64,000 nucleotides of DNA, from the NCBI RefSeq assembly GCF_017876295.1, contig NZ_JAGINT010000002.1, positions 496,001 to 560,000 of the forward strand, written 5' to 3'. Position 1 is the first letter of the stretch. Every line of letters begins with the position of its first letter. The position numbers and the translations under genes were made by a program. This DNA is from Kribbella aluminosa. GTDB taxonomy: Bacteria; Actinomycetota; Actinomycetes; Propionibacteriales; Kribbellaceae. The notes under the pieces were generated by a model. That model was not told where the DNA came from. It saw only the letters and a list, made by a program, of their open reading frames with translations, and searched no databases. Positions 1 to 63,983 of the stretch are shown here, in pieces.

Positions 1-161
1 CGACCCGCACCGACGCCCGGACGGAACGGCAGGCACGCAACGACTGGCTGATCACCGAGCTCAGCCGACTCGCGGCAACCGCCGACGATCCCCACGAGCA
101 GACCAGATACCGTCGCGCCGCCGACTCCCTCGCCCGGCTCGCGCTCGCGCACCGCCCGTGA
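1..161 (+). CDS. 3' end of a small helical protein gene (partial)
   Basis: This is the C-terminal 52 codons of a gene that begins outside the window, read from base 3 to a TGA at 159-161. The peptide is basic and probably helical, with no recognised domain. It aligns loosely with residues 25-60 of the 148-residue protein at 1402-1848 (a D-W-x-x-x-E/L-x-R-L stretch, then R-x-R-A-x-D-S-x-x-x-L). The stop overlaps the GTG start of the next gene in a GTGA arrangement, so the two are probably translationally coupled. By analogy with the second copy of the module it is the small partner of the metallopeptidase-like protein downstream. Function unknown. Confidence 0.55.
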   Translation, partial: TRTDARTERQARNDWLITELSRLAATADDPHEQTRYRRAADSLARLALAHRP

Positions 162-1099
162 GGACGCCGGCATCGGTCGCCGACCTGCTCGCGGTCAGCG
201 GCGAGATCGCCCGCGTCCTCGCCGGCGCCGACCAGTCCGCGTGGAACGGACGCGTCGTCGCGACCTCGAGCGCGATCCTCGGACTCGCCCACTGGGACGG
301 CACGCTGTACCTCGACCACGACGCAATCCTCGCCCCTCTCCAGCACCTGTACGAGCACGCCGGGGAGTACCACGCGCCGCCGACCCTCCGCGCCTACCGG
401 GAATCGCTGGCGACCATCCTGCACGAACACGCACATTTCCTCGGCCCATCGGGCGCGACCCAGGAAGCCGCCCGGGAAGGCTTCGTCAAACCCGGCAGCC
501 GTGAGCTGGAGGAAGGCGTCACCGAAGCCTGGGCCCAGGACCACCTCGACGCCTACCTCAACCGCCTGGGCGTCGACAAAGTTGCCCCCGGCATCAACTC
601 GGTCCGCTCCGGCGGCTACTACGCCGCCTTCGTTCCCGCCGTCCGCCACCTGACCGCGGACCTCGACACCCGCAACAACCAGCCACCCGGCCACACCCTC
701 CAATCCCTCAACTGCCAAACCGCCGCCGGCCAGTTCCCTCTCCTGGTCGACCACCTCTACAACTCCACCCGCCTCCCCACCCTGGAATCCCCAGCCGCCA
801 CCACCCGCTCCCACCTCGAGTCCATCCTCCGCACCGGCCTCTCCCACCTCGACGTCTATGAACTGGTCGCACCCGACCTGGCCACCAAGAAGTCCCGCCT
901 CACCGCCGAAAACCTCCTGACCCACCTCGACCACGAAATCCAGTCGGCAGAATCCGCGTACACGTTCAGCCGAGCACGCACCCCATCCCCCATCCACACA
1001 GCCATGTCAGGCGTGGCCACCCCACGCCCATCAACCATCCCCGTCACAACGCCCCGTCCCCACCGACCAGCCACCCCGATCGCGGAGCTCGCCAGATGA
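158..1099 (+). CDS. HExxH metallopeptidase-like protein, copy 1
   Basis: A 313-residue protein with a zincin-type motif H89-E-H-A-H93, followed 25 residues later by a glutamate-rich E-E-G-V-T-E segment (118-123) that could supply the third zinc ligand. The paralogue at 1864-2901 has the same motifs at exactly the same residue numbers (HENIH 89-93, EEGVTE 118-123), so these positions are under constraint. There is no signal peptide or membrane segment, so it should be cytoplasmic. The last 50 residues are rich in Pro, Thr and Ser and look disordered. The GTG start overlaps the upstream stop by 4 bp. Zinc binding and peptidase activity are inferred from the motif only. Substrate unknown. Confidence 0.7.
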   Translation: MRTPASVADLLAVSGEIARVLAGADQSAWNGRVVATSSAILGLAHWDGTLYLDHDAILAPLQHLYEHAGEYHAPPTLRAYRESLATILHEHAHFLGPSGATQEAAREGFVKPGSRELEEGVTEAWAQDHLDAYLNRLGVDKVAPGINSVRSGGYYAAFVPAVRHLTADLDTRNNQPPGHTLQSLNCQTAAGQFPLLVDHLYNSTRLPTLESPAATTRSHLESILRTGLSHLDVYELVAPDLATKKSRLTAENLLTHLDHEIQSAESAYTFSRARTPSPIHTAMSGVATPRPSTIPVTTPRPHRPATPIAELAR

Positions 1100-1137
1100 A
1101 CGCATCACCAGTCGTATCTACTCGGGAGACCGGACCC

Positions 1138-1296
1138 ATGGACTACAAGACCTTTCACGCCGAGTACTTGCACCTGCTCATTTGTGTTGACTCCCTGGAC
1201 GCAGAGAAGTTCACCGCCGAAGCCCAACGCCTACGCCGTCCACGCCGTTGCTCGCCAGCTCCCTGGAGATCTACCCCAACCGACGACCATCCCTGA
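1138..1296 (+). CDS. Short truncated relative of the 148-residue partner protein
   Basis: A 52-codon frame whose start was chosen at ATG 1138, because GGGAG lies 9 bases upstream; a longer frame from ATG 1096 overlaps the previous stop as ATGA. Its first residues (MDY, then alternating acidic and hydrophobic residues) match the start of the protein at 1402-1848, and both starts sit in a similar CCCATGGACTAC context. The last 20 residues are Arg/Pro-rich and unlike a folded protein, so this is probably a truncated or frameshifted copy of the small partner gene. Whether it is translated is uncertain. A G+C palindrome follows directly. Confidence 0.4.
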   Translation: MDYKTFHAEYLHLLICVDSLDAEKFTAEAQRLRRPRRCSPAPWRSTPTDDHP

Positions 1297-1301
1297 CTCA
1301 C

Positions 1302-1323
1302 CGGCCCGCCCCGGGGCGGGCCG
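1302..1323. terminator. 22-bp perfect G+C palindrome, likely terminator
   Basis: Bases 1302-1323 are a perfect inverted repeat of C and G, centred on CCCCGGGG and lying just after the stop at 1296. There is no T run, as is usual for actinobacterial hairpins. It would separate the first metallopeptidase module from the second. Confidence 0.5.
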
Positions 1324-1401
1324 ATAGGCCACGGCTCGCCCGGCCGCAGTCTGGCCATCACACTGCGGCGTCAGGCGCCATCGCACGGAATACTGGAGCC
1401 C

Positions 1402-1848
1402 ATGGACTACGCGGCGTATGACGAGCAGGAGCAGCGGCTGGTCGATGCGGTGATGGCCAAGTCGATCGCCGAGGAGGACTTGTGGATCGAGGTCGACCGC
1501 TTGAAGGCGCTGATCCCGACCGTGGAGCCGGCAGCAGATCGTCAGCGCGCCGAGGACAGCATGGAGTCGCTGGAGCGCGTGCTGAACCTCAAGGCCCCAC
1601 CGATGTCGGACGAGATGGCCGCCGCGATCCGGGTCCAGTCGAAGGCCTTCCTCAGCAAGGGCACCCCCGACGAACGCATCGAACTCCTCAGGGCCGCCAT
1701 GACCGAGATCGGCCGGATCGCCGCATCGATGGACGGGGCCGAGGCAAGCACCATCCGCCATCTCAACGAACCACTCGCGATGGACATCGAAGCGGTCCGC
1801 ATCCACAACGACCCCACCCACCCCGGCTACCAAGGACACGCCGAATAG
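1402..1848 (+). CDS. Small acidic helical protein, partner of the HExxH protein
   Basis: A 148-residue soluble, acidic, probably all-helical protein with no recognised domain, signal peptide or transmembrane segment. It starts at ATG 1402 with GGAG close upstream. It lies 15 bp before the second HExxH protein, and its residues 25-60 resemble the partial protein that precedes the first HExxH protein. The pairing of a small helical protein with a zincin-like protein therefore occurs twice. Possible roles are a chaperone, inhibitor or substrate of the metallopeptidase-like protein, but nothing in the sequence decides among them. Confidence 0.6.
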   Translation: MDYAAYDEQEQRLVDAVMAKSIAEEDLWIEVDRLKALIPTVEPAADRQRAEDSMESLERVLNLKAPPMSDEMAAAIRVQSKAFLSKGTPDERIELLRAAMTEIGRIAASMDGAEASTIRHLNEPLAMDIEAVRIHNDPTHPGYQGHAE

Positions 1849-1863
1849 CAAGGACCGAAGAGC

Positions 1864-2901
1864 ATGGTCGCGAGTCCCGCCGAACTGATGCAGGTCCAGG
1901 CGGATGTCGCTGTGGCGACGCTGCGCGCGCACCACTCGTCCTGGAACAAGCGGTACGAAGTACTCCCGCGGAGCGACGAGCTAGCGTCCGGTGTGACGTG
2001 GGACGGCACCATCCAGTACAACCCCATCGATGTCACCGAGCCTCTGCAGGAGATGTTCGATCGTGCCGAGCGGCAGCACGACGACGAGACACTGATGAGC
2101 TTCCGCGAAGCCCTGCGGATCGTCTTGCACGAGAACATCCACCTGATGGCCGGTCCAGGTACGTCGTTGACTTTCCCGCTCGACGCGTACGAAGGAAAAG
2201 CCCACAAAGTCTTCGAAGAGGGAGTCACCGAGCGAGCGACGCGGAACGAACTCACCAACTACATCGACGCACTCGAACTGGAACGGATCGCTCCCGGCAT
2301 CAGAACGGCACCGACCCAGGGAGCGTACGCGGCCTATATTCCTGCCGTCGACGAGTTCGCTGCGGCCGTTGGCAAGAACGTCGGTCTGGAGCCTGCCGAG
2401 GTCGTGCATCGAATGGCGGTGGTGAACGCGACAGAGAAGTTCCCGGTCGCCGCGGAGCTGCTGTACGCGAAACATTTGAGCCAGCTGGTTCCCGAGGCGG
2501 CGAAGGCGGACGCTGTCGGCCGCATCGCCGAGGCCATGCATGGGCCGTTCGCCGCCATCCACGACTGCAACCCGAAGGACCCCTCCGACATTCGCATGTC
2601 CGGTATGGCGGGACGCGCCGCCTTCCGGAACGCGAGTGCGGAAGTCCGGCAGATCGCCGCGCATTGGTCGGGGAATCAGGAGCTTCGGCGGGCGCTTGAC
2701 GCAGGTCTTGGAGCGAACGCGCCGCTTCATAAGCCGCAGCAGGATGGTCGGGCCGGCGATGGTTCGCGTGCCGAGGGTGGAGAGCCGGGGCAGCGGCCGA
2801 GTTGGAATGCTCAGTCTGTTGATCATCGACCGTCGGCCCCGGGGCCCTCGGGAACGTCCGCGGCCCGCGCAGATCGTCCGCGCAGGTTGTCGCGGGACTG
2901 A
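1864..2901 (+). CDS. HExxH metallopeptidase-like protein, copy 2
   Basis: A 345-residue paralogue of the protein at 158-1099. The H89-E-N-I-H93 zinc motif and E118-E-G-V-T-E123 are conserved, as are a W-D-G-T segment at 46-49, an R-I-A-P-G-I segment at about 141 and a G-A-Y-A-A-Y-I-P block at about 153. The C-terminal 75 residues or so are Gly-, Arg- and Pro-rich and probably disordered, and they are not shared with copy 1. The ATG has an AAGGA-type site upstream and follows the small partner gene by 15 bp, suggesting one operon. There is no secretion signal. A cytoplasmic zincin is the best guess; activity and target are unknown. Confidence 0.7.
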   Translation: MVASPAELMQVQADVAVATLRAHHSSWNKRYEVLPRSDELASGVTWDGTIQYNPIDVTEPLQEMFDRAERQHDDETLMSFREALRIVLHENIHLMAGPGTSLTFPLDAYEGKAHKVFEEGVTERATRNELTNYIDALELERIAPGIRTAPTQGAYAAYIPAVDEFAAAVGKNVGLEPAEVVHRMAVVNATEKFPVAAELLYAKHLSQLVPEAAKADAVGRIAEAMHGPFAAIHDCNPKDPSDIRMSGMAGRAAFRNASAEVRQIAAHWSGNQELRRALDAGLGANAPLHKPQQDGRAGDGSRAEGGEPGQRPSWNAQSVDHRPSAPGPSGTSAARADRPRRLSRD

Positions 2902-20219: not shown

Positions 20220-20963
20220 TCAGATCAGCCTCTTCAGCAACGGCAGCGGCGCCACCCGCATCACCTGGGCCAACGGCCACCACGGCCGCGCCGGCACGCA
20301 CGCCTTCGCCTTCTCCGCCTCGATCGCGGCCACCATCGCCCGCACGCCCGGCTCGGTGTCGACGATGAACGGCGCGTGTTCGACCCGGTCGTTCATCTCC
20401 GACCGGATGTACCCGGGGTAGATCGTGCTGACCTTGATCGGCTTGCCGAGCAGCTCCAGCCGCAGGCCCTCACCCAGCGAGGCGAGCCCGGCCTTCGTCG
20501 CGGCGTACGTCGTGACCGTCTTCGGGAAGCCGCGCAGCGCGGAGATCGAGGCAATCAGTACGAGGTGCCCGGCGTTCCGCGCCCGGAACAGCTCGAGCGC
20601 CGCCTCCGCCTGGGCGAGCGCACCGACGAAGTTCGTGAGCGCGGTCTCCCGGTTCGCGTCGAACCGTCCGGTGCCGAGCGGCGCGCCCTTGCCGAGGCCG
20701 GCGTTCACCACGATCCGGTCCAGCGGCAGCTCGGCGTCGATCGCGCGGAACACCTCGAACACCTGGTCGTGGTCAGTCACATCCAGGCTGTGGATAACCA
20801 CCTTTGCCTGTGGATAACTCTCGGCGAGCTCGTCCCGGAGCGCTTCCAGGCGATCCGTACGCCGGGCGGTCAGCGCGAGCCCGTGGCCCTTCGCGGCGAA
20901 CTGCCGCGCCATCTCCGCACCGAGGCCGGAACTGGCGCCGGTGATCAGGAGGTTCCGTCGCAT
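20220..20963 (-). CDS. Short-chain dehydrogenase/reductase (SDR)
   Basis: A 247-residue classical SDR. The cofactor motif T-G-A-S-S-G-L-G is at 8-15, N-A-G-L-G at about 89-93 and the catalytic Ser plus Y-x-x-x-K (Y-A-A-T-K) at about 140-160. The start is at ATG 20963; the frame runs further upstream but without homology. Within the acyl-CoA dehydrogenase operon. Two TTATCCACA boxes fall in its codons near residues 50-58, where they encode V-I-H-S and S-Y-P-Q. Confidence 0.88.
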   Translation of the reverse strand: MRRNLLITGASSGLGAEMARQFAAKGHGLALTARRTDRLEALRDELAESYPQAKVVIHSLDVTDHDQVFEVFRAIDAELPLDRIVVNAGLGKGAPLGTGRFDANRETALTNFVGALAQAEAALELFRARNAGHLVLIASISALRGFPKTVTTYAATKAGLASLGEGLRLELLGKPIKVSTIYPGYIRSEMNDRVEHAPFIVDTEPGVRAMVAAIEAEKAKACVPARPWWPLAQVMRVAPLPLLKRLI

Positions 20964-22075
20964 CGAGGGAGTCCTATCTGTGAGTGAGCAGGTCCGCACC
21001 GAGGTGGACGTGCTCGTTGTAGCTCACCACAGTCAGCCCGCCGCGCCCGGACACGACCTTCGTGATCCCGGTGTTGATCGTCACCGGGTTCAGCTTTGTC
21101 CACAGGTCGTCACCGCCGGACAGCAGCCGGCTCACCACGGCCGCGATCGGCCCGCCGGACGTGAAGACGAGCGCCGTCTCGCCCTTGCCGAGCCGCCCGG
21201 CAGTACGCCGTACCGCCGCCTCCGACCGGTCGCAGAACGCCTGGAACGGCTCGGTGTACCCGTCGCCGCCGTCGATCCAGCGCTGGGTCGCGGCCGTGAA
21301 CATCTCCTGGAACGCCCGCTTCGGGTTCCCGCTGCGCGCCAGGTCGGCCACCATCACCGTGTGCCGTTTGTACGCCGGCTTGTGGGCGACGAGCAACTCC
21401 TGGAAATCGAACTCGTCGTACCCCGGATCCACCTCCGGGATGAATCCGGCGAGCGTCGCCGTCTGCTGATGCCGGCGCATCGAACCCGAGACGACAACGT
21501 CCGCCCGGACATCACTCAACGTCGACGCAAGCCGGGCGGCCTGCTGCTCGCCGAGCGGTGACAGCTTGTCGTAGTCACGGGCACCGAACGACGCCTGCGC
21601 GTGCCGGATCAGGTAGATGACCGACATCTACGCCTGCCGGACGATTCGGCGGCAGCGCCGCTCGAGCAGGTTGACCGGGAGCCAGAAGTTCCTGAACCGC
21701 GGGTTCCGGGTCTGCTTGTGGTGGTAGCGGTAGTAGATCTGCTGCGCGATCACCGCCAGCCGGAACAGCCCGAACACCTCGTAGAACGCCCAGTTGTCCA
21801 CAGGCAGCCCCGACTGCTTCACGTAGTACTGCACGATCTCGTCGCGGGTCAGCATGCCCGGGACGTCGGACGGTTGCAGCCTGAACCGGCGGAACGCCCA
21901 GTCGTCGTCGGCCTGCACCCAGTACGCGAGCGCGCTGCCGAGATCCATCAACGGATCGCCGAGCGTGGCGAGCTCCCAGTCCAGTACGCCGACCACCCGC
22001 AGCGGGTCGTCCGGTGCCAGCACGACGTTGTCCAGCCGGAAGTCGTTGTGGATAACGCAGGTCCGGATATCCACA
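20789..22075. other. Cluster of DnaA-box sequences inside coding DNA
   Basis: TGTGGATAA occurs at 20789-20797, 20809-20817 and 22047-22055, TTGTCCACA at 21794-21802 and ATATCCACA at 22067-22075. The first three match the classical box TTATCCACA exactly on the minus strand. All lie in genes of the acyl-CoA operon, about 38-40 kb from oriC. Function is uncertain: it may be a DnaA titration or regulatory site, or partly a by-product of codons such as V-I-H. Confidence 0.45.
20974..21627 (-). CDS. Histidine phosphatase family protein
   Basis: A 217-residue protein of the phosphoglycerate mutase-like histidine phosphatase superfamily. The phospho-acceptor motif is R8-H9-A; further catalytic residues include the R of V-V-S-G-S-M-R-R and the E of E-F-D-F-Q-E, with a late F-T-S-G-G-P-I block replacing the second His motif. 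It is cytoplasmic. It lies between the phosphotransferase and SDR genes in the same operon with almost no spacing. The substrate may be a phosphorylated intermediate made by the neighbouring kinase-like protein, but this is unproven. Confidence 0.85.
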   Translation of the reverse strand: MSVIYLIRHAQASFGARDYDKLSPLGEQQAARLASTLSDVRADVVVSGSMRRHQQTATLAGFIPEVDPGYDEFDFQELLVAHKPAYKRHTVMVADLARSGNPKRAFQEMFTAATQRWIDGGDGYTEPFQAFCDRSEAAVRRTAGRLGKGETALVFTSGGPIAAVVSRLLSGGDDLWTKLNPVTINTGITKVVSGRGGLTVVSYNEHVHLGADLLTHR

Positions 22076-60576: not shown

Positions 60577-63500
60577 GTGGTCGAGGACCATTCCGCCAGT
60601 GCGGAATTCACACCGGCGGAATTCACGGCAAGCGAGTACCGGACGGATTACCACGCCGCCCGCCGGCAGGATCTGCGGCCCGAGCCCGACGCCGACATCC
60701 GTCCCGAACCCGAAGCGAACTTCCGTACCGAGGTCCCGCCCGCTCCGGAGCCCCGGCCGCGCACCGAAGCCCTACCCCGCAGCGAGCCGACACCCCGCAC
60801 AGAGCCAGCACCCCGACCGGAGCCGACACTCCGTACAGAGCCCACACCCCGAGCGGAGCCCGCACCTCGTACAGAGCCGACGCTCCGTACGGAGCCGGCA
60901 CCTCGAGCGGAGCCCACACCCCGTCCGGAGCCCGCGCCTCGTCCGGAGCCCGCGCCTCGAGCGGAAACGCGGCGCCGTACCGACTCGATGCCGCAGGCCG
61001 AGACCCTGCCGATCACGCTGCCGGAGCCTGGGCCGCGGATGGATCCTGGTGACTACCTGAGCCCGTCGCTCCCGATCCCGATGCCCGAGCCGTCGGCCTT
61101 CGGGTACCGTCCCGCGCCGCCACCGGCGCCGTACGGCTACCGGTCCGAGCTCGAACGTGCGGCCACCGATCTCCCGGCCGGCCCACCCATGCCCACCGCA
61201 GGTACGACGTACTTCGGCGCGGCCCCAGCCGTCGGCAACTACCGCCACCCCGACCCGGGCACTGCCTGGGGAACGGCGGATTGGGGTACCGGCAGCGTCA
61301 ATGCAGCTGGCTCGGCACCGAACGAGGGCGAGGCACGTGTGGACAACGTATCCACCAACCAGTGGTCATCCGACGACAACCCCCCGCAGCCCCAGCCCGC
61401 TGCCGACCGGACCGAGGCTCCAGAACACGCCACACCTGGACAGCCGCCGTCCGACCAGCACCCCGTCGCCGTCGACCAGCACCCGGTCGACCAGCAGCAG
61501 ATCGGGCAGCAGCAGGTCGGCCAGCAGCAACCGCAGCACCAGGTCAATCCGCAGCCGACCGAGCAGCACGCGACGCACCAGGCGCACGAGCAGGCCCAGC
61601 ACGAGCACCAGCCCAACCTCCAGCAGCAACCGCCGGAGGAGCACACCACGCTGGACCCGCAGTCCCACCAGCACGCTCCACACCAGCCTGCTCGACAACA
61701 ACCGGCCCCACAGCCGGTCTCCCACCAGCCCCCACCTGAGCAGCACCAGCTGCACCACCAGGGCCACATCCCACAGCAGCAGATCCCCGGGCAGCAGGCC
61801 CCGGACCAGCAGACCCACGTGCAGCAGGTTCCCGAGCAGCAGGTCCCGGAGCAGCAGGTTCCCGAGCACCAGGTCCCGGAGCAGCACGCCCCGGAGCAGC
61901 ACGCCCACGGGCAGCAGGCCCCGGAGCAGCAGCAAGTCGCACAGCAGCCACACCAGCAGACCCAGCAACCGCACCAGCAGCCGCTGCAACAGGCCGCACA
62001 TGAGCCCGCGACACACCCGCAGCAGACCCAGCCCACCACGCAGCAGCAAGCTGAGCAGCAGCCCGTCGTGCAGCCGCGCGCCCAACAGGCACAGCAACCT
62101 CCTGCGCAGCAGCCCGTCGTGCAGCAGCACGCTCACCAGGCACAGCAACCGCCTGCTCAGCAGCAGATGACGCAGCAGATGCAGCAACAGGTCCAGCAAC
62201 CTGCCACTCAGCAACAGATGCAGCAGCAGGTGCAGCATCCCGGCGCTCAGCAACAGATGGCTCAGCAGCCGACTCCGCAGCAGCACCTGCAGCAGCAGCA
62301 GCCGCAGCTGCATCAGCCGCGTGTCACCGAGGTCGCGCCAGCAGTCACAGACCTAGGTGAAGCCTGGGCCCGCGTACTCGCCGGCCTGCCGCCGAACCAG
62401 CGTGCCTGGCTGACCAACTCGCGCCCGGTCACCCTCCACGAGAGCACGGCGATCGTCGCGGTCCCCGACGACTTCACCCGCGGCCAGTTAGAGACCCGCC
62501 TCCGACCGGACCTCGAGCGGATTCTCACCGAGAGCTTCGGCCGCGACATCCGGATCGCCGTCACCGTCGACCCGTCCCTGGACCCCGAGCAGCAGGCCCC
62601 CCAACACCAGCAGCCGCAACACCAGCAGCCCCAGCACACGCTGCAACAGAACCCCCTGCAACAACCGCAGGCCCCGCAGCAGCAGTACACGCAACAGCCG
62701 GCCCAGCAGCCCGTACAGCAACCCCCTGCCATACGCGAGCCACTCCGCACCGACGGCGCGTACCAGCCGACCATCCAGTCCGCGCTGACCGATCCGGACA
62801 ACAGCCCGCACTACAACCAACCGCCCGCGCAGCAGCACTACCAGCAGCAGGCCCAACAACAGCAGAACCCGTTCGGCCAGCCGCTGGGCTCGGTCGCTCC
62901 GCCGCCGAACGGTTCCAGCCAGCCGGCCACGGAGGCGCAGGGCGAGGCACGCCTGAACCCGAAGTACACCTTCGAGACCTTCGTCATCGGCAGCTCGAAC
63001 CGGTTCGCGCACGCGGCCGCCGTCGCGGTCGCCGAGGCACCGGGCAAGGCGTACAACCCGCAACTGATCTACGGCGACTCCGGTCTGGGCAAGACCCATC
63101 TCCTGCACGCGATCGGCCACTACGTCCGCAGCCTCTACACCGGGGGCCCCGCGTGCGGTACGTCTCCAGCGAAGAGTTCACCAACGACTTCATCAACGCG
63201 ATCCGCGACGACAAGGCGTCCCAGTTCCAGCGCCGGTACCGCGATGTCGACGTACTGCTGATCGACGACATCCAGTTCCTGGAAGGCAAGATCCAGACCC
63301 AGGAAGAGTTCTTCCACACCTTCAACACGCTGCACAACGCGAACAAGCAGATCGTGATCAGCTCCGACCGGGCACCGAAACGCCTGGAGGCCCTGGAGGA
63401 TCGGCTGCGGAACCGGTTCGAGTGGGGTCTGATCACCGACATCCAGCCGCCGGACCTGGAGACCCGGATCGCCATCCTCCGGAAGAAGGCGGCCACCGAG

Positions 63501-63983
63501 CGGCTGACCGCGCCGCCGGAGGTGCTGGAGTTCATCGCGTCCAAGGTGCAGACCAACATCCGTGAACTCGAAGGTGCGCTGATCCGCGTCACCGCGTTCG
63601 CCAGCCTGAACCGGCAGCCGGTCGACCTGAGCCTCGCCGAGATCGTGCTCAAGGACCTGATCCCCGAAGGCAGCAAGCCCGAGGTGACGGCCAGCATGAT
63701 CATGGGCCAGACGGCGTCGTACTTCGGGCTCTCGATCGACGACCTGTGCGGTTCGAGCCGCAGCCGCGTCCTCGTGACGGCCCGCCAGATCGCGATGTAC
63801 CTGTGCCGCGAGCTGACGGATCTCTCGCTGCCGAAGATCGGTCAGCAGTTCGGCGGCCGCGACCACACGACCGTGATGCACGCGGAGCGGAAGATCCGGC
63901 AGCTGATGTCCGAGCGACGCAGCGTTTTCAACCAGGTGACCGAGCTGACGAACCGCATCAAACACCAGGCGAAGCAGCAGTAG
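60577..63983 (+). CDS. dnaA: Chromosomal replication initiator DnaA with giant N-terminal extension, frameshifted
   Basis: The replication initiator. GTG 60577 has GGGGAG 6 bases upstream. Residues 1-582 are low complexity (Pro/Glu/Arg hexads, then Gln-rich). Domain I follows at about 590-665 ([18 protein letters not shown]), a Gln-rich domain II to about 800, then AAA+ domain III with Walker A G-D-S-G-L-G-K-T (833-840) and L-L-I-D-D-I-Q-F, and domain IV with [10 protein letters not shown]. The frame is lost after T855: the run at 63142-63150 is two bases too long and the rest lies in the frame from 63150 on. Corrected length is about 1,134 residues against 450-650 normally. Confidence 0.88.
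60757..60966 (+). repeat. 18-bp tandem repeats encoding P-R-x-E-P hexads
   Basis: About 12 imperfect 18-bp units, each encoding (T/A)-P/L-R-(T/P/A)-E-P, lie in the dnaA N-terminal extension. Units vary at third positions and at one variable codon, which suggests an expanded coding repeat that is kept in frame. Confidence 0.8.
61486..62310 (+). repeat. Glutamine-rich CAG-type coding repeats in dnaA
   Basis: A long stretch of mostly CAG/CAA codons, with local 15-bp units encoding E-Q-Q-V-P (about 61830-61890) and units [14 protein letters not shown]. About half of the residues are Gln. It ends just before the DnaA domain I. A second Gln-rich block follows domain I (62590-62870). Confidence 0.85.

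Follow-up and report, generated by a model that had tools for sequence, protein, structure and literature searches.

Bacterial HExxH proteases that are encoded together with a cognate non-enzymatic protein are known from the M78/COG2856 protease–repressor pairs such as ImmA-ImmR and IrrE-DdrO, which the accessible parts of the sources link to stress or DNA damage (PMC2701414, PMC8072749). A small gene that comes first, overlaps the start of the next gene and occurs in several paralogous copies is familiar from type II toxin-antitoxin systems, and an HExxH helix followed by a Glu on the next helix belongs to the gluzincins of clan MA(E), which include LTA4 hydrolase/M1, M61, DPP III and thermolysin. 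Here, we describe a locus that shares traits with all three and is placed by its sequences in none of these named families. It lies at the start of a 64,000-nucleotide stretch (the window; contig 2, C2:496001-560000) of the 8.94 Mb, two-contig assembly of Kribbella aluminosa, where two paralogous HExxH proteins (family H) each follow the gene of a small helical partner (family s). We read the s-H pair, with a probability of about 0.45, as a partner-controlled cytosolic protease unit, part of whose copies stand under DnaA-box promoters.

All genes of the locus are on the plus strand. The first unit opens with a short s gene encoding 60 amino acids (aa), which was recognised by a profile match, has an equivalent at the core slot of the genus described below and starts 22 bases ahead of the window (-21 to 161, i.e. 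C2:495979-496161, with 1-161 inside the window). Its stop codon shares bases with the GTG start codon of the first H gene (158-1099; 313 aa; motif HEHAH), the core copy, whose reading draws on E119 conservation, a structure model and fold alignment and whose predicted zinc site comprises H89/E90/H93 at 422-436 and E119 at 512-514. A remnant of a second s gene (1138-1296) matches the first 34 profile positions only (1138-1239). It is followed by the full-length s gene of the second unit (1402-1848; 148 aa; all-helical model), which stops 15 bases ahead of the second H gene (1864-2901; 345 aa; motif HENIH), a paralogue of the first with its predicted zinc site at 2128-2142 (H89/E90/H93) and 2218-2220 (E119). 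At the same place in another genome (G010), two s genes lie between both H genes (L107).

Over 199 residues, the two H proteins are 30% identical (two-sequence comparison, E 1e-29), and HExxH at 89-93 and EEGVTE at 118-123 carry the same numbers in both because the alignment is ungapped there, i.e. this is one homology rather than two coincidences. A profile built from full-length s proteins only matches the 60-aa s (profile positions 87-129) and the truncated copy (1-34) with an independent E of 1.2e-4 each when the frames of the initial 3,100 bases are searched; against 12,135 frames, the truncated copy scores E 0.016. The small proteins are therefore homologous, the 60-aa s retaining the C-terminal helical part only. 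The preliminary description of the window had noticed the two paralogues with their shared motif positions, the small helical gene ahead of each, the likeness of the small proteins and the truncated third gene in between, and all of these observations hold; the sequence upstream of base 1, to which it had also drawn attention, contains the start of the 60-aa s gene and a DnaA-box-like element.

For a genus-wide view, 38 genomes were searched for H, and 116 stretches were fetched around the listed H and s places, leaving out a weak tail match (G008:C1:1054642). Open frames of at least 45 aa from these stretches, with gene starts set by rule rather than by evidence, entered iterated profile searches. 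A later profile search brought up further H members beyond the fetched stretches (e.g. in G002:C4, at 1.38 Mb of G017:C1 and in G013:C70); the counts per genome are lower bounds, and the later-found members stand outside them. Five later-found loci (L243-L247, of which L247 overlaps L103) were read, yet kept out of the counts. HExxH is present in 124 of the 153 ungapped aligned frames, and Glu119 accompanies it in 124/124 such rows versus 4/29 ungapped rows without HExxH, a comparison that sets aside 13 gapped rows and in which the rows without the motif align less certainly. Column 123 of the 124 HExxH rows holds Glu in 118 and Asp in 6. In a 32-row H alignment, E119 is the sole fully invariant residue besides the H, E and H of the motif, whose own invariance is there by construction since the rows were picked for HExxH. 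This conserved site speaks for catalysis by H.

An AlphaFold 2 (AF2) model of the first H, built from 26 sequences, is confident over most of its length, with a predicted local distance difference test (pLDDT) score of 89.4 and a predicted template modelling (pTM) score of 0.83. It places HExxH on a helix at 74-94 and E119 on a helix at 114-137, in keeping with the zincin-type site proposed earlier for the family. The pLDDT falls to 60 or less past about residue 270, and the low-confidence tail from about residue 273 is probably disordered. In a second look, in which VIA-align 2 was run on Foldseek's own candidates, 20 of the 23 rows at a Z of at least 5.0 are gluzincins by title, 12 of them LTA4 hydrolase; the clan membership of these rows is what we take it to be from their titles. 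LTA4 hydrolase leads the list (Z 7.1, root-mean-square deviation 4.3, 168 aligned) ahead of DPP III (7.0, 5.2, 180), with thermolysin (5.2, 4.7, 170), elastase (5.2), MATCAP (5.2) and aminopeptidase N together with M1 peptidases (5.0-5.5) further down; two of the three non-gluzincin rows are plainly unrelated helical proteins. The motif evidence agrees with this ranking, and on that ground we consider H quite probably a gluzincin-type zinc protease. The model resembles the gluzincins in its HExxH helix, the Glu on the following helix and three short strands before them, and H differs from them in having no sequence relative in the PDB, 25 residues between the second His and the Glu, a distribution confined to one genus in our samples and no signal peptide, as judged by eye with no predictor run. 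We infer zinc binding, proteolysis and a cytosolic place for H from these traits.

Four patterns were tried on the tails of the HExxH members: G.[AST]P is present in 62 of 119 (on average 26.9 and at most 36 after shuffling), two others are enriched as well, and G.{1,2}P.[SAG], at 53 of 119 versus an average of 47.2 after shuffling, is not. Among HExxH-less members, G.[AST]P shows no enrichment (5 of 21 against a mean of 4.4).

H is a family without a name in the Pfam, PHROGs, NCBIfam, PADLOC and PDB sequence collections searched. NCBIfam and PHROGs were compared with the window proteins, and Pfam with the window proteins, 32 H members, two long ones and 22 s members; the scans of the 32 H and 22 s members were read up to E 0.1 for Pfam and up to E 0.01 for PADLOC. 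No family in Pfam, PHROGs, NCBIfam or PADLOC is matched by more than one H member, the PADLOC scan of the 32 H gives a single stray match (SIR2, E 0.0032), and the best E in the PDB by sequence is 0.48. A literature search, which did not cover subscription papers, found nothing on a Kribbella HExxH or metallopeptidase family or on DUF222 with a DnaA box.

The association of H with s recurs across the genus. Counting H members with a coverage of at least 150 profile positions, 103 of the 121 with HExxH have an s gene at most 200 bp upstream and in the same orientation, and in 48 of the 121 the s-H distance falls in the -20 to -1 bin, i.e. the genes overlap; 13 of the 26 HExxH-less members likewise have an s gene upstream. 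Conversely, 10 loci were reached by the s search alone, and 9 of these have an H-profile match alongside (4 with HExxH, 4 without it and 1 fragment). Tandem rows of s-H reach four units in L245, where the last frame is broken. Full-length s proteins mostly measure 131-152 aa, and the AF2 model of the 148-aa s is all-helical (pLDDT 85.9, pTM 0.57). Of 44 short copies, a profile of 22 full-length s proteins recovers 17 at E <1e-3 and 25 at E <1; the 19 that it misses even at E 10 were joined via iteration and position. Only 3 of 11,990 other frames score below E 10 with the s profile, and one of them is the window's truncated gene. Distances among s and among H are correlated over the 72 pairs with a full-length s (Spearman 0.586; none of 199 permutations as high) and remain so when genomes are taken one by one (0.395, a value reached in 4 of 499 shuffles), as expected for units that diversify together. 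Overlapping genes, frequent pairing and co-divergence speak for an s-H complex.

Several identities considered for s were set aside. Matches of the 148-aa s to Hen1 and aspartate-tRNA ligase (E 0.014-0.09) are weak and read as helical chance, as are a C-type lectin chain (E 0.00041) and coiled coils or designed helices (E of 0.04 and above) in the PDB by sequence, and two Cas11e models in PADLOC, each of which hits one of the 22 members (E 0.00058 and 0.00068). DUF7902 of Pfam is matched by at most two of the 22 (best E 0.0018). The C-terminal half of s aligns with MIT domains and three-helix bundles (2crb, Z 7.8), but the unrelated helical protein 5bt1 scores Z 8.6, so that this likeness reflects a common arrangement only and a MIT-like fold is indistinguishable from other helical bundles.

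A second line of evidence comes from the promoters. In 16 aligned upstream regions of core s genes, the block TTATCCACA (TTTTCCACA in three of them) is conserved amid diverged sequence together with a second block, TATGTTCTCCG. The accessible part of the source gives TTATCCACA as the consensus DnaA box (PMC8203912). The window genome has the exact TTATCCACA at -107 to -99 (C2:495893-495901). Across 36 core loci, TTNTCCACA stands exactly 38 nt before a TANNNT hexamer in every case (36/36), the box being TTATCCACA in 28, TTTTCCACA in 4 and TTGTCCACA in 4. In the class of loci at the ffh slot, the exact box is found inverted in 15 of 26 windows, and sites with TGTGGANAA lie 27 nt before TANNNT in 17 of 18. 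Box and spacing are thus conserved across the genus, and these s-H promoters resemble DnaA-regulon promoters in having a 9-mer at a fixed place before the promoter in both the core (38 nt) and the ffh-slot (27 nt) group.

Of 46 exact TTATCCACA sites in 1,033,207 bp of loci, 42 lie at most 200 bp upstream of an s gene, as do 4 of 6 TTTTCCACA, 7 of 45 TTGTCCACA and 0 of 4 TTCTCCACA sites. Counted by s gene, TTATCCACA occurs in 41 of 145 upstream windows of 120 bp versus a mean of 0.01 and a largest value of 2 for 300 permuted 9-mers; these box counts are not independent because the loci share descent. A profile match identifies dnaA itself at 62401-63959 of the window, near its end, and the gap after dnaA contains two TTTTCCACA; the probable replication origin is therefore about 60 kb away from the core s-H copy.

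In the K. aluminosa genome as a whole, the exact TTATCCACA is strongly over-represented, with 74 sites versus 3 occurrences of the reversed control pattern. Among the first 30 sites, all on contig 1, a TANNNT hexamer follows the box at 36-41 nt or the inverted box at 25-27 nt in 15, with peaks at 38-41 nt (direct) and 27 nt (inverted) and with 6 of the 15 called coding. The later sites (23 on contig 2 and 3 in the window) show this geometry in 1 of 26. Since these distance ranges were chosen with the first set already in view, a genome-wide class of such promoters is a lead only, and a genome-wide DnaA-box regulon is not established; the disparity between 15/30 and 1/26 also means that the box alone does not make such a promoter.

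Within the genomes sampled, the H family is restricted to Kribbella, where it occurs in 38/38 genomes with 1 to 8 HExxH members each in the loci read; we did not find it outside the genus, and a diverged relative elsewhere is possible. In an order sample of 117 genomes, all 38 Kribbella genomes have H and 2 of the 79 others give matches at E 0.004-0.005; a repeat search that added ten genomes and scored every candidate included both, and they lack HExxH. A class sample of 296 genomes yielded the own genome plus two weak C-terminal matches (residues 257-312 and 204-296; E 5.5e-4 and 7.7e-4), and a phylum sample of 396 genomes, scored with 5 candidates per genome, the own genome only. The s profile has one match outside the genus (G712, E 7.1e-5). 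A scan of contigs for relatives returned 21 loci, all but one Kribbella by title, and searches of viral contigs, phages and plasmids gave no relative for the queries used.

One s-H copy is tied to a fixed chromosomal place. This core copy has the gene for inositol-1-phosphate synthase (PF01658) as a neighbour in 36 of 38 genomes; the core slot of G031 (L170) holds truncated and extra copies, and that of G001 (590 contigs) was not found. The remaining copies vary in number from genome to genome. Single linkage sorted the fetched loci into 17 neighbourhood classes, of which class 0 surely lumps two slots, and, s and H aside, just four gene clusters are shared between classes (two to four classes each). 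Pfam confirms inositol-phosphate synthase, M20, DUF72, carboxyl transferase, TatD, ABC transporter, DUF2332 and MFS genes as neighbours, and ffh/SRP54 is among them too; all further neighbour names are what we take these genes to be. No mobile elements were seen near s-H, where no systematic scan was made. The inositol-phosphate synthase is 94-99% identical to that of the window genome, versus 45-72% for the core H in 14 species compared. In the six closest species pairs, core H has a ratio of nonsynonymous to synonymous substitution rates (dN/dS) of 0.15-0.37 and core s one of 0.12-0.44. A genus-wide family that occupies several slots, mostly with its partner, and is under purifying selection should have a definite job.

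How might such a unit work? We propose that H would be a cytosolic gluzincin-type zinc protease made together with its dedicated helical s, and that s would bind H through its conserved C-terminal helical part and control it, whether it holds the protease inactive or directs it to a target. At the core and ffh-slot promoters, DnaA would read the 9-mer at its fixed distance before the -10 hexamer. We infer both the physical s-H complex and DnaA as the reader of the box; the fixed box-to-hexamer distance in two groups of units suggests that expression is probably tied to DnaA and hence to the replication state or replication stress. If DnaA does read these boxes, regulated proteolysis in an actinomycete would be linked directly to replication initiation through these units, and the constant spacing of box and -10 hexamer makes DnaA control testable by a simple reporter. 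A more ambitious version is doubtful in our view, its probability lowered by the failure to establish a genome-wide regulon. In it, DnaA would drive the s-H copies of the whole genus as a lineage-specific proteolytic response whose output follows the replication state; its box would keep a fixed helical phase, the spacings of 27 nt (inverted) and 38 nt (direct) differing by one helical turn, and a few other genes may share the arrangement.

A number of observations weigh against the reading as a partner-controlled protease under DnaA-box promoters. On the side of the protease, Foldseek returned nothing significant for the model of the first H (best E 0.92 in the PDB and 0.11 in BFVD), Z scores below 8 such as those of the gluzincin rows can reflect a common arrangement, and AF2 may know the HExxH motif from its training. 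There are 26 HExxH-less members with at least 150 profile positions, and those beside an intact one may be regulatory pseudo-enzymes. The pairing, too, has its gaps: 18 of 121 HExxH members have no s gene within 200 bp, L100 has an s gene without any H, and solitary s genes have no H in 9/9 loci from 9 genomes, as read over about 5 kb on each side (2.4 kb on one side of L239). The lone fusion of s and protease parts that was seen, in a set of loci that was not searched systematically for fusions, carries HQQSH and adjoins a truncated copy. As to the promoters, the second s-H pair of the window has no box, and the exact box is absent from 42/42 s upstream windows of other classes, from 51/77 of class 0 and from 11/26 of class 2. 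TTGTCCACA is not specific, with only 7 of 45 sites near an s gene, and the independent placements of the box may be as few as two, in opposite orientations. Finally, dN/dS is higher when all usable pairs are taken, with medians of 0.48 for core H, 0.23 for core s, 0.34 for the second H and 0.62 for the second s.

Among the alternatives, a toxin-antitoxin-like module would make H a toxic protease and s an antitoxin that is encoded first and translationally coupled. Its likeness to type II systems lies in the small first gene, the stop-start overlaps (48/121 in the -20 to -1 bin, with starts set by rule) that would imply such coupling, the several paralogous copies (1 to 8 HExxH members per genome, plus extra and solitary s genes) and the fast evolution of core H (45-72% identity beside a synthase at 94-99%). 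We nevertheless regard it as rather unlikely: the core slot is kept in 36 of 38 genomes, no mobility was seen, no phage, plasmid or viral relative turned up in the collections searched, no known toxin or antitoxin family is matched, and a minority of H lack the partner (18 of 121 HExxH members) or the HExxH motif itself. PADLOC, read up to E 0.01, offers stray matches only (a single one among the 32 H), and H belongs to no described anti-phage defence family by this search. With the core slot kept, one PADLOC stray and no viral, phage or plasmid relatives, a vertically inherited function is favoured over a mobile conflict module. Of the proposal of a functional two-component unit in the preliminary description, the recurrent pairing (103/121) stands, and a complex, protease activity and any link to conflict systems are putative; homologues that lack the His/Glu residues or the partner, for which the description had looked out, occur as a minority only (26 without HExxH, 18 of 121 without s), and that it could not place the locus in a named system agrees with the libraries searched.

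Another possibility is that s is the cognate substrate of H, in the style of ImmA-ImmR or IrrE-DdrO, such that a signal would make H cleave s and the loss of s would be the output. One protease usually stands beside one cognate non-enzymatic protein, the two diversify together, and some s-H promoters carry a DnaA-like box, which would sit well with M78 pairs answering DNA damage or stress in the accessible parts of the sources (PMC2701414, PMC8072749). Compared with these pairs, however, the s-H protease is longer, has a low-confidence tail and lacks an M78 match in Pfam (32 members), and s is all-helical, encoded upstream and without a helix-turn-helix match (22 members), with a DnaA-box-like promoter in part of the copies; moreover, the last helical part is all of full-length s to which core s can be aligned. 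At the level of the fold, a relation to M78 is conceivable, with 8sln (PprI) at Z 3.8 in VIA-align 2. M78 plus repressor may thus be an analogue by its way of working, with membership failing for both parts at the sequence level, and cleavage of s as the output is, to us, unlikely. LXG toxins have small helical partners in type VII secretion, and s could by analogy be a chaperone or targeting partner of an H delivered as an effector, a view for which one could cite the gene order, with a small helical protein ahead of an enzyme whose tail is of low confidence, and the enrichment of some tail patterns. None of the four recurring neighbour clusters looks like part of a secretion system, judged from Pfam for one (MFS) and from our reading for the others, and no LXG or WXG100 match appears in Pfam up to E 0.1, which leaves an export or injection pair highly improbable. 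The remaining alternative concerns the promoter alone and is compatible with any other reading: the 9-mer may be read by a regulator other than DnaA with the same site. That the sites are spread over the genome (74 exact, 3 for the control pattern) and that the -10 geometry holds at 15/30 contig-1 sites but 1/26 others would suit such a regulator, whereas TTATCCACA is the consensus DnaA box in what is accessible of the source (PMC8203912), the variants TTGTCCACA and TTTTCCACA that replace it are DnaA-box-like too, and TTTTCCACA occurs twice after dnaA. We hold this to be a tenable possibility, if a tentative one.

Some individual loci are worth recording beside the partner-controlled protease unit preferred here. 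In L110, L127, L148, L153, L157 and L163, an HETDH protease is followed by a very short s and then by an HExxH-less member. At C2:1509423-1510853 (L243:5024-6454), an s-H pair with a DnaA box has its H match split over two frames, one with the HExxH part and one with the C-terminal part. L083 (G002:C1:808884-817462) contains an s-less H, 11 bases before which a 209-aa gene of another kind ends. Solitary s genes lie at L236:5013-5462 and at similar places in L237-L242, L248 and L249; the one in L236 follows a gene of another HExxH family, Zn_peptidase (PF04228). On the minus strand of L170:4019-4963 (G031), the C-terminal part of s is fused to a protease domain with HQQSH; as proof of an s-H interaction, this fusion was given little weight.

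Among 20 proteins near the boxes of contig 1 that were scanned with Pfam, DUF222 occurs in 5 (3 of which also have HNH), and the others include a DEAD-type helicase, UPF0102, Uma2, SRP54, unrelated enzymes and a RelA/SpoT-like domain below the cut-off. A box with the promoter geometry precedes the helicase gene (L268) and the RelA/SpoT-like gene (L258), but not the DUF222 genes; the DUF222 proteins (L251, L262, L271, L273 and L276, all on contig 1) start 51-77 bases from exact DnaA boxes. A group of 5 sites has an offset of 55 after the inverted box, and within the window itself, 20789-20817 and 22047-22055 contain three exact DnaA boxes inside coding-like frames, two of them 11 bases apart.

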